DNA from: a virus
Strand: one strand, 5' to 3'
Virus record (IMG/VR): IMGVR_UViG_3300008108_000057
Coordinates: 57,540-121,539 of that record
Length of the DNA: 64,000 nt
The position numbers and the translations under genes were made by a program. Of this stretch, positions 37,123 to 58,080 are shown one piece after another. A model generated the notes under the pieces. The model did not search any database. It was not told the origin of the DNA and saw only the letters and a program-made list of their open reading frames with translations. Every line of letters begins with the position of its first letter. Positions within the stretch are counted from its first letter, which is position 1.

Positions 37123-37151
37123 TTGACAAAACGATTGAGCCAATGTACAAT
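37123..37151 (+). promoter_or_regulatory. Sigma70-like promoter inside the tRNA array
   Basis: TTGACA, 17-bp spacer, TACAAT, after an inverted repeat TGTTGT/ACAACA. It would drive tRNA-Glu and the structured RNA downstream. Confidence 0.82.
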
Positions 37152-37195: not shown

Positions 37196-37270
37196 GGACC
37201 GTTCGTCTATCGGTTAGGACATTGCCCTTTCACGGCAGTAAGAGGAGTTCGATTCTCCTACGGTCTACCA
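37196..37270 (+). tRNA. tRNA-Glu(TTC)
   Basis: Anticodon loop CTTTCAC in the stem TTGCC/GGCAG, T arm AGGAG-TTCGATT-CTCCT, encoded CCA. Confidence 0.93.
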
Positions 37271-37308
37271 TATTAAAGTATATTCATAATAAGTATACTT
37301 CAATATGG
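37268..37308 (+). repeat. Inter-tRNA palindrome 1
   Basis: CCATATTAAAGTATA pairs with TATACTTCAATATGG (14 of 15 positions). It starts on the CCA of tRNA-Glu. A matching palindrome lies at 37626. Confidence 0.8.
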
Positions 37309-37508
37309 TTTCCGGTTACTACTTTCCTGAAAGTAGCGTGTGGCGACGAGAATTGTCCCGGTGGCTATGGCACCGTTAGCGCCGTCGAAAGCAGACAACA
37401 TAGCAGCGTGGACACTACGTAGCAAATCGCTGATTAGTGTTCGGACAGGGTAACAACTCAGTCTAGGGCTTGCGTGGAAAACAAGTAGCTAGACACCTTA
37501 ATTTTTTT
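37309..37508 (+). ncRNA. Candidate structured non-coding RNA in the tRNA array
   Basis: About 200 nt, visibly richer in G and C than the surroundings and without a plausible ORF. Stems seen: CTACTTT/AAAGTAG (37319-37336), GGCG/CGCC (37342/37380) enclosing CGGTG/CACCG (37359/37371), CAGCG/CGCTG (37404/37428), and a terminal GTCTAG/CTAGAC (37461/37489) enclosing CTTG/CAAG, then seven T. Promoter at 37123 upstream. Not recognisable as tmRNA, RNase P RNA, 6S or a group I intron. Confidence 0.65.
37461..37508 (+). terminator. Terminal hairpin and T run of the structured RNA
   Basis: Six-pair GTCTAG/CTAGAC stem with an inner CTTG/CAAG helix, then ACCTTAA and seven T. The gap before the T run makes it a weaker terminator than the others here. 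Confidence 0.6.
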
Positions 37509-37524: not shown

Positions 37525-37563
37525 ATGGATAGTGACAAGAGTGGTAAGATTATGGGTGCGTAA
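37525..37563 (+). CDS. 12-codon mini-ORF ending at tRNA-Lys positions 8-10
   Basis: MDSDKSGKIMGA with AAAGGAGA 8 nt before the ATG. The stop TAA is nucleotides 8-10 of tRNA-Lys. It could be a leader whose translation affects tRNA release, or chance. Very short, so low confidence. Confidence 0.3.
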   Translation: MDSDKSGKIMGA

Positions 37564-37628
37564 CTCAATGGCAGAGTAATCGGCTTTTAACCGATAAGTT
37601 GTGAGTTCGAGTCTCACCGCACCTACCA
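37554..37628 (+). tRNA. tRNA-Lys(TTT)
   Basis: Acceptor GGGTGCG/CGCACCT with one G-T, anticodon loop CTTTTAA in ATCGG/CCGAT, T arm GTGAG-TTCGAGT-CTCAC, encoded CCA. Confidence 0.93.
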
Positions 37629-37664
37629 TATAAAAGTATTTTGTATCAGAATATTTTTATATGG
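37626..37664 (+). repeat. Inter-tRNA palindrome 2
   Basis: CCATATAAAAGTATT pairs with AATATTTTTATATGG over 15 bp with one G-T. It begins on the CCA of tRNA-Lys and ends on the first GG of tRNA-Asp. Confidence 0.8.
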
Positions 37665-37991: not shown

Positions 37992-39236
37992 ATGAAAACT
38001 CGTGGATTAAATTATGGGGCCAGTGTTGGTCTTGAAGCATATGATATAGACTGGAACTCTAAAGAAGAAATTGATGAATTAGGTAGACTTTGTGCTAGTC
38101 AATGTATTGTTTTTGTCAATGAAAGAATACCTACTGAACAAGTATATAACATTATGACTCAATGGGGCGACTCAAGCCGAGCCCTTATACATGAATATGT
38201 TATTCAACGTAAAATTTCAGGTAGACATTGGAGAGAGATATTACTTAATTTAGGATATATCGCTAAGGATGCAGGGAAGGACATCAGTCCGGCAGTATCT
38301 ATGGTAAGTTATAAAAAGGATGATGATGGTCGTCCTCGAGGCATTTTCAGTAACGGTGAATTAGATTGGCATAGTGACCAATGTGCATTTGATGATGCAC
38401 AACGTATTATTGGTTTACAAAGTATAAGTGACACGGTAAACAGTCAAACAACATTTTTATGTACACATGATGCTTACGAATCGCTGAGTTCGGACATACG
38501 TAGCATGGTGAAGGAATTGATTGTAAAACACAAATGGGTTGATGGAGTCATGGCTCCGGGGTTGAACTATCTTCAAACCATGCTACTAAAATACAACATG
38601 GTGCCAATAGATGGAATGGAAACTCATTTGTATAGAGAAACCGCTACCGGGCGTCCTGGTATAAAATTTCCATCACATACATTTAATGGATTTGTTGGCA
38701 TGTCGTTAGAAGAAAGCCATAGAGTCATGAATGAGTTAAAGAAAGAAGTTTATCAAGACAAATACGTATATACTCAGAACTGGCAAGATGGTCAAATTGT
38801 TTTTATGGATCAAGAAATTACATTACATGCTAGACCAACTAATGTTAGTGATGGTGATAAAAGAACTATGGCAAGAGTAATTACTTATTTAAATCATCTA
38901 TATCCAGAAAATAAATTAGCTACTCATGTAAGATTTAAAGGAAAAATGATTAGTCATGATGATTTTGCCAAACTAGTGGATGCTGATAGATCATACAAAT
39001 TTGAACAAGAACAAAAACTCAAAGAGATAATTTCAAAACAGTTCAAGGTAGTCGATAATAGACTTGATACCTGTACTAATTTAATTTCGGAGCTTGACGC
39101 CGACAGTCTTGATTTACTAGAATTAGTGCTTTCCATTGAAAGACAATTCAAAATTGAGATCGACGAATATGATACAAAAGATGTACGCACATTCGGAAAA
39201 ATTTTAGAATTGATACAGTCTAAAACTTCAAATTAA
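37992..39236 (+). CDS. TauD/TfdA-type 2OG dioxygenase fused to an acyl carrier protein domain
   Basis: 414 residues with AAGGAA before the ATG. Residues 1-330 form a TauD-like oxygenase: iron motif WHSD (His127, Asp129), distal His279 and the arginine region DKRTMARV (291-295). Residues about 340-410 are an acyl carrier protein: LDADSLDLLELV holds the phosphopantetheine serine Ser372, followed by the helix ERQFKIEI. Such fusions suggest hydroxylation or desaturation of a carrier-bound acyl or aminoacyl group. The gene stands alone between tRNA-Tyr and tRNA-Ala. No synthetase or transferase partner is adjacent, so host enzymes would have to load it. Confidence 0.85.
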   Translation: MKTRGLNYGASVGLEAYDIDWNSKEEIDELGRLCASQCIVFVNERIPTEQVYNIMTQWGDSSRALIHEYVIQRKISGRHWREILLNLGYIAKDAGKDISPAVSMVSYKKDDDGRPRGIFSNGELDWHSDQCAFDDAQRIIGLQSISDTVNSQTTFLCTHDAYESLSSDIRSMVKELIVKHKWVDGVMAPGLNYLQTMLLKYNMVPIDGMETHLYRETATGRPGIKFPSHTFNGFVGMSLEESHRVMNELKKEVYQDKYVYTQNWQDGQIVFMDQEITLHARPTNVSDGDKRTMARVITYLNHLYPENKLATHVRFKGKMISHDDFAKLVDADRSYKFEQEQKLKEIISKQFKVVDNRLDTCTNLISELDADSLDLLELVLSIERQFKIEIDEYDTKDVRTFGKILELIQSKTSN

Positions 39237-57386: not shown

Positions 57387-58080
57387 TGTTCCTTTAGGCG
57401 CATTTGGTGGCCCTCTCAGAAATGGTGATATTGTTGCTGTAGCAAATGTCGTTGAATATCTTAGAAAAGTAGAAGATAAAAATATAAAATTCCATCTTTT
57501 ACCTAACTCTGTGTCATCAGCAGATTACTGTCAGAAATTTTTAAAGTTTATGTTAGAGAATACAGATTATTTCTCTGATAACGCAGGTGAAAAAGAACTT
57601 TCATGGAAAAATATTAATCTTTGGGATTTTAGAGGATTATCTGGTGATTTAGTGAGAATCCCAAATAATAAAAAGCAAGAAAAGAAGATAGTTATCTGTC
57701 CTTTATTTAATGCCCAATACAACACATACAGAAATTGGCCAAAACATATTTTTGAAAAAATGCTTGAGAGATTTAAGAGCGAAGCATATTCGGATTATAG
57801 AAAAATCATTTGTACAGAAGAAACTATAGGCCACATTGATGGGTGGGAAGAATCTACAGATTTTCTAGAAAATTTAGATCACATAATGACAAGTGAAATA
57901 TTCTTTGGGGGTGATACTGGAACTAGTCACTTTGTTGGTGCATTAGAAAGTGGACCAGGTGAAATATTATATTTCTATTCTGGTCATGGTCTTATTCACA
58001 CAACTCCTTTCTACTCTACCTTAGGAAAAGGAAGAGTCATTCAGTACTGGCATAACTTTGAACAAGCAACTTGGAGTTAA
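57376..58080 (+). CDS. GT9/heptosyltransferase-like protein (second of two)
   Basis: 234 residues. LGAFGGPLRNGDIVAVANVVEYL is the N-terminal half pattern, VICPLFNAQYNTYRNWPKHIFEKML resembles the GT-B C-terminal half start, and FFGGDTGTSHFVGAL corresponds to the G-x-D-S-G-x-x-H acceptor motif of heptosyltransferases. It probably adds a sugar to a lipopolysaccharide-like acceptor. Confidence 0.72.
   Translation: MIINVPLGAFGGPLRNGDIVAVANVVEYLRKVEDKNIKFHLLPNSVSSADYCQKFLKFMLENTDYFSDNAGEKELSWKNINLWDFRGLSGDLVRIPNNKKQEKKIVICPLFNAQYNTYRNWPKHIFEKMLERFKSEAYSDYRKIICTEETIGHIDGWEESTDFLENLDHIMTSEIFFGGDTGTSHFVGALESGPGEILYFYSGHGLIHTTPFYSTLGKGRVIQYWHNFEQATWS

Follow-up and report, generated by a model that had tools for sequence, protein, structure and literature searches.

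Large phages carry arrays of tRNA genes, and to our knowledge no function has been established for the non-tRNA RNAs known from such arrays (T4 RNAs C and D, GOLLD, ROOL). The question raised by the present locus is whether a spacer between two tRNA genes of a phage encodes a further RNA of this kind, and if so what that RNA might do. The window is a stretch of 64,000 nucleotides (positions 57,540 to 121,539) of the 163,380-base IMG/VR virus record IMGVR_UViG_3300008108_000057, whose terminase, major head protein (PHROG 138), tail sheath, DNA polymerase and clamp loader indicate a T4-like myovirus. The closest named relatives of its major capsid protein are those of Methylophilales, Pelagibacter, Stenotrophomonas and Synechococcus phages (62–66% identical). 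ARAGORN finds 25 tRNA genes at 35–44 kb of the window, and a preliminary description of the sequence had proposed a structured RNA of about 200 nt between tRNA-Glu and tRNA-Lys of this array. The locus contains the following features.

37123..37151, + strand: sigma-70-like promoter TTGACA-17-TACAAT, upstream of tRNA-Glu (consensus scan, 11/12 positions).
37196..37270, + strand: tRNA-Glu (TTC), directly upstream of the RNA (ARAGORN, Rfam tRNA).
37268..37308, + strand: AT-rich hairpin CCATATT..AATATGG, which includes the tRNA-Glu CCA and ends at the RNA start (sequence).
37308..37497, + strand: whole structured RNA, a type A member (cmsearch, model R1 195.7 bits, model R2 67 bits).
37502..37508, + strand: T run TTTTTTT, terminator-like, beginning 7 nt after the 3' hairpin (sequence).
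37554..37628, + strand: tRNA-Lys (TTT), downstream of the RNA (ARAGORN).

The ends of the RNA were set by covariance model, giving a length of ~190 nt in the window and ~200 nt in relatives (family range about 190–210 nt). The element had been described as non-coding and GC-richer than its surroundings and both statements hold, as it contains only short overlapping ORFs and its GC content is 51.6% against 35.4% in the window, a value reached by only 0.6% of 190-nt windows. The good promoter said to lie upstream is likewise present and is predicted to serve a transcript carrying tRNA-Glu and the RNA, a consensus match alone being no proof of function. The 3' hairpin with a T run is found in the window as described, but the terminal T run does not stand as a general trait: it follows the hairpin in only 2 of 14 type A members, the window and locus L207, and is thus not a feature of the family. 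Thermodynamic folding of the single sequence gives no support to the candidate (MFE −55.4 vs −55.5 ± 4.8 for shuffles, z = 0.01) and is uninformative here because much of the fold consists of pseudoknots, which a nested fold overlooks. A GUCC/GGAC pairing of the MFE fold was dropped because it is absent in L015 and L124. The AT-rich hairpin before the RNA and a similar one at 37626-37664, which takes in the tRNA-Lys CCA, are probably processing signals between array genes. A model search found no second copy of the RNA in the window's own genome, the next-best match scoring 9 bits. Also inside the tRNA array, at 37992-39236, is a TauD-like dioxygenase fused to an acyl carrier protein domain.

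Homologues in other phage arrays, on which the preliminary description had made its proposal depend, were found both by nhmmer and by an IMG/VR pattern scan. Phage loci were fetched by two neighbouring proteins, the RNA itself being unused, and nhmmer detected copies that have diverged, two of them in some loci: L015/L016, L063, L020 and, as a weak match, L035. Alignment of these copies revealed two sub-types, A and B, with a common 3' core. A 26-base core pattern matched at least 119 IMG/VR contigs and the scan gave at least about 100 distinct full-length members, a lower bound on the size of the family, nearly all of them in tRNA arrays of uncultured viruses. The pattern fixes 18 core positions and leaves the others free, so the invariance of those 18 is partly by construction; the core at 37443-37461 is also present in members whose detection made no use of it. 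Among the matches listed most are of type B and about 14 distinct ones are of type A, like the window. A model built from type B alone (R2) finds the window with 67 bits (E = 5.8e-16, E-values being rough owing to a short calibration) and the other type A members included in that search with 35–58 bits, while a model built from type A (R1) scores type B members. Because the B-only model finds the window at such an E-value, types A and B are homologous and form one family.

Both types occur within one record in G003 and G004 (near-identical), G017, G032, L063, L104, L177 and L207. Relatives picked by polymerase or hydroxylase are often without the RNA (G001, G002, G005-G010), and it is missing from G001 although locus L004 of that genome has 13 tRNAs. 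The RNA is therefore gained and lost. Where the terminase of a carrier is recognisable it is only 34–72% identical to that of the window, so the fold has outlived much phage divergence.

The fold derived from comparison of the members consists of the following elements.

37313..37315, + strand: proposed PK1, 5' strand CGG with CUG 37327-37329 of the P1 loop (covariation in type B; predicted in the window).
37319..37336, + strand: helix P1, 37319-37325 with 37330-37336 (type A and type B covariation).
37337..37348, + strand: short pseudoknot PK3, CGU 37337-37339 with ACG 37346-37348 (62% of type A cells paired; weakly supported).
37359..37375, + strand: helix P3, 37359-37362 with 37372-37375, the 5' strand of P4 in its loop (type A alignment).
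37364..37404, + strand: pseudoknot P4, GCUAUG 37364-37369 with CAUAGC 37399-37404, crossing P3 (covariation).
37407..37419, + strand: short helix P6, 37407-37408 with 37418-37419, the 5' strand of PK2 in its loop (71% of type A cells paired).
37411..37441, + strand: pseudoknot PK2, GACACUA 37411-37417 with UAGUGUU 37435-37441 (type A covariation, partner-swap test).
37443..37461, + strand: most conserved core, GGACAGGGUAACAACUCAG, common to both types.
37461..37494, + strand: 3' hairpin, P8 37461-37466 with 37489-37494 and P9 37468-37472 with 37482-37486 (type B equivalent).

Pairs were counted on a MAFFT alignment built blind to structure. For type B, 47 relatives with a median pairwise identity of 57% were aligned, and standard pairs filled 95.4% of the 1240 pair cells, a share that fell to 31–49% when partners were slid by 1–3 columns; picking the helices on related alignments favours the unslid version somewhat, though not by the observed margin. 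Compensatory double-changed cells numbered 270 vs 75 ± 8 in shuffles, which leave kinship in, a point addressed by the sliding controls and the A/B comparison. Double changes occurred in 22 of 27 type B pairs, and type A gave 53 compensatory cells vs 24 in its control. The same helices were singled out by column-pair statistics on 83, then 47, type B sequences. The compensatory changes that had been named as the evidence to look for are therefore found far above shuffles in both types, and the claim of at least five coexisting stems is upheld, several of the stems being pseudoknots.

Taking the helices singly, P1 is paired in 100% of type A cells (double changes in 4/7 pairs) and in 97% of type B cells (5/5 pairs). 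The type B equivalent of P3 is 94% paired with double changes in 3/4 pairs, and P4 is paired in 89% of type A cells, including a G-C to U-A exchange, and in 92% of type B cells (3/3 pairs). The P3-loop/P4 pairing is kept in other letters, GCUAUG/CAUAGC in the window and GCUAGG/CCUAGC in L015, and since P3 and P4 cross, a pseudoknot is directly supported. PK2 shows double changes in 6/7 type A pairs; the pairing of GACACUA with UAGUGUU in the window becomes CAUUAUG with CAUAAUG in L160 and L174, and an alignment-free test that presented the PK2 strand of each sequence with another member's partner strand gave z = 4.2 (A) and 5.2 (B). The type B equivalent of PK1 (columns 56-75) is 95% paired. 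The 3' hairpin equivalent of type B is 99% paired with double changes in 7/11 pairs, and the 55% count in type A is low partly from misaligned loops. PK3, together with P6 and the 3' hairpin in type A, are the less certain helices. Comparison thus shows a fold of hairpins with loops pairing to downstream strands (P3/P4, P6/PK2), followed by the conserved core and the 3' hairpin, and PK1/P1 probably follows the same loop-to-strand arrangement. For PK1 and PK2, covariation would fit pairing within a molecule or between molecules alike. The window RNA displays the traits that mark the family, namely the conserved GGACAGnGUAAC core, the P3/P4 and PK2 pseudoknots and a 3' hairpin with an internal loop. 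Because many relatives carry matching compensatory mutations, comparative sequence analysis confirms the structured RNA as real and of non-chance origin.

The proposed Rfam scan found no known family on the element. With curated thresholds, Rfam 15 (4227 families) gave only tRNA matches in the window; on the element itself there was none down to E = 10, with tRNA-Glu and miRNA-type chance matches around it, and 12 relatives searched at E ≤ 0.5 gave tRNA, one tmRNA and chance matches, none of them on the element. This agrees with the earlier statement that the sequence does not fit tmRNA, RNase P, 6S or group I introns and, together with the homologues and the covariation, supports a structured RNA outside the families known to the author of that statement. 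RNase P, group I intron and kink-turn, also weighed as candidates on sequence grounds, were dropped for want of a model match. BLASTN of the window element, a type B member and the 3' core against INPHARED named phages gave chance matches only, a match in YW01 being rejected with a model E of 0.42 and a position in annotated ORFs. Running both models over the complete sequences of ten named phages, among them T4, Melnitz, Mosig, HTVC008M, DLP6 and three cyanophages, gave nothing above noise. Two exact patterns found no prophage copies in GTDB bacterial genomes, which is weak evidence because the patterns were exact, and a literature search found no description of the RNA. The RNA family is new, within a class of phage tRNA-array RNAs already known.

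Within that class the T4 RNAs C and D (species 1 and 2 RNA; rnaC 139 nt, rnaD 119 nt) are annotated within T4's tRNA cluster, with no function assigned. The window RNA resembles them in being small and non-coding, with no ORF, and in lying beside tRNA genes, and on their strand, within the tRNA cluster of a T4-like phage. They were rejected as homologues as neither model rose above noise on the T4 cluster, with filters off too; rnaC ends in a tRNA-like T arm whereas the window RNA is without one. The ornate GOLLD RNA, for which no function is known, is found near tRNA islands of phages, as is ROOL, a phage and prophage RNA with multiple pseudoknots (PMC12286853). Both had been set aside as much longer, correctly so, since GOLLD often exceeds 800 nt and the solved ROOL chain extends beyond nt 464 (PMC12286853) against about 190-210 nt here, and the RNA has no Rfam match to either. 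Theta ribozymes are HDV-like, tied to gut-phage tRNAs and reported to trim tRNA 3' ends (PMC10879173). The window RNA is like them a pseudoknotted RNA associated with phage tRNAs, but it has no HDV-like Rfam match and its pairings come in a different order, with no nested double pseudoknot. The closest known RNAs are T4 RNAs C and D, GOLLD and ROOL; judged by sequence and model comparison, the present RNA occupies the same niche but differs from them in sequence and fold, and is placed outside those families.

The position of the RNA within arrays bears upon its role. Among the matches listed there are 101 distinct full-length members, and the nearest tRNA is on the strand of the RNA in all of them and on the opposite strand in none. 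The RNA starts within 10 nt of the 3' end of an upstream tRNA in 42 of these 101 (tRNAs of 12 kinds, tRNA-Thr in 21) and ends within 20 nt of the next tRNA in 22, many members stopping 1–11 nt short of it; a tRNA lies within 300 nt downstream in 85. The downstream neighbour is variable, being tRNA-Gly, Met, Asn, Ala or Glu, another RNA or an ORF, and this variety speaks for action in trans; the array layout and variable downstream gene together point to a gene excised from a tRNA precursor and not to the leader of one gene. Counting against excision, ~60% of members start more than 10 nt from any detected tRNA. Also observed was a tiny ORF, conserved as MDSDKSGKxMGA or in the longer form MDSDKKGLLRYGxTY.. 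and provided with a strong ribosome binding site; in the window this ORF occupies 37525-37563 (12 residues, MDSDKSGKIMGA) with its stop codon inside tRNA-Lys, and it recurs in L104, L117, L127, L160, L177, L178, L207, L015 and L020.

We consider it reasonably probable that the RNA belongs to a new family of structured RNAs of phage tRNA arrays that are stable and act in trans. The RNA would be transcribed together with the neighbouring tRNAs and set free by the nucleases that trim both the 3' and the 5' end of tRNAs and cleave the AT-rich processing hairpins; it would then persist during infection as a free RNA, like the T4 stable RNAs C and D. It may be a folded scaffold or decoy that binds some protein or ribonucleoprotein belonging to the host's machinery for translation or RNA decay, the partner being a guess, and its action would not be regulation of one neighbouring gene. 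A self-cleaving or processing ribozyme, excising itself or trimming the 3' end of the upstream tRNA, would suit the compact pseudoknotted fold, the highly conserved core and the 42 listed members starting close behind a tRNA. We think this unlikely given that HDV-like, hammerhead and other Rfam ribozyme families give no match, that the pairing order is unlike the HDV nested double pseudoknot, that over half of the members do not adjoin a detected tRNA end and that in the window a hairpin separates the tRNA from the RNA.

A homo-oligomeric assembly like the GOLLD and ROOL cages, with some of the covarying loop pairings intermolecular, would share the niche of phage tRNA islands and the loop pairings of those RNAs (PMC12286853), and covariation is blind to the distinction between intra- and intermolecular pairing; with an RNA ~4x shorter than GOLLD and without a sequence or structure match to either family, such an assembly seems quite improbable. 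Still more doubtful is a cis-acting leader (riboswitch or attenuator) of the next gene, in the window the tiny ORF before tRNA-Lys. The window and L207, both type A with a 3' hairpin, then a T run and the strong ribosome binding site of a short ORF just downstream, would fit a leader element too, but the T run and ORF are missing downstream of most members, where the features vary widely, and the ORF is found elsewhere without the RNA directly upstream. The folding energy, being the same as that of shuffled sequence, would be expected of a chance fold in GC-rich spacer DNA or of a tRNA-derived pseudogene, a reading left with practically no probability by the homologues in many phages and the compensatory changes seen in both sub-families.

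Other structured RNAs were observed in the same arrays. Family C (~90 nt) has a closing stem of ~19 pairs and conserved GGAC..CACC and GAAAA segments and lies between the type B RNA and tRNA-Gly or tRNA-Met (L106:8009-8101, L108:4614-4706, L133:1721-1818, L139:303-396, L221:4575-4669 and others); double changes occur in 13 of its 30 predicted pairs. Family D/E (about 125-137 nt), whose members have a common closing stem, occupies spacers downstream of type B members (L113:11261-11389, L153:3496-3624, L170:823-960, L179:743-882, L181:4654-4794 and others). Its sub-type E has an acceptor-like stem, no CCA and a tRNA-like T arm (GGTTCGATTCC) resembling that of T4 RNA C. Neither family had an Rfam match in the loci scanned (L138, L170, L179). 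These array RNAs share the ends CTTTAT...ATAAAG and sit in tandem. More recurring non-tRNA segments are present in downstream flanks (L155, L107, L199, L125; L132, L182, L200; L127, L158, L160, L204; L104, L122), many of them bounded by AT-rich inverted repeats CTTTAT..ATAAAG and lined up in tandem like cassettes. In or near tRNA arrays, L159:13-295 (− strand) and L008:2680-3016 carry a permuted tmRNA (Rfam tmRNA_permuted; ARAGORN tmRNA*, tag ANASNDEVFALAA), and in a related phage L019:9159-9234 is an ARAGORN tRNA with anticodon CTA (labelled tRNA-Pyl), possibly a suppressor tRNA. The arrays carrying the RNA hold at least two further RNA families with covariation, and others besides. A tentative idea, to which we give a small though not negligible chance, is that the RNA is part of an unrecognised module in which unrelated structured RNAs would be excised from one precursor and act together, for example in catalysis or as decoys that counter host defences aimed at tRNAs.

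The family is widespread and has a testable, covariation-supported fold, and at ~200 nt it is short enough to synthesise, probe and solve. The role of tRNA-array RNAs becomes approachable through it, and the arrays that carry it hold more structured RNAs missed by automatic annotation.
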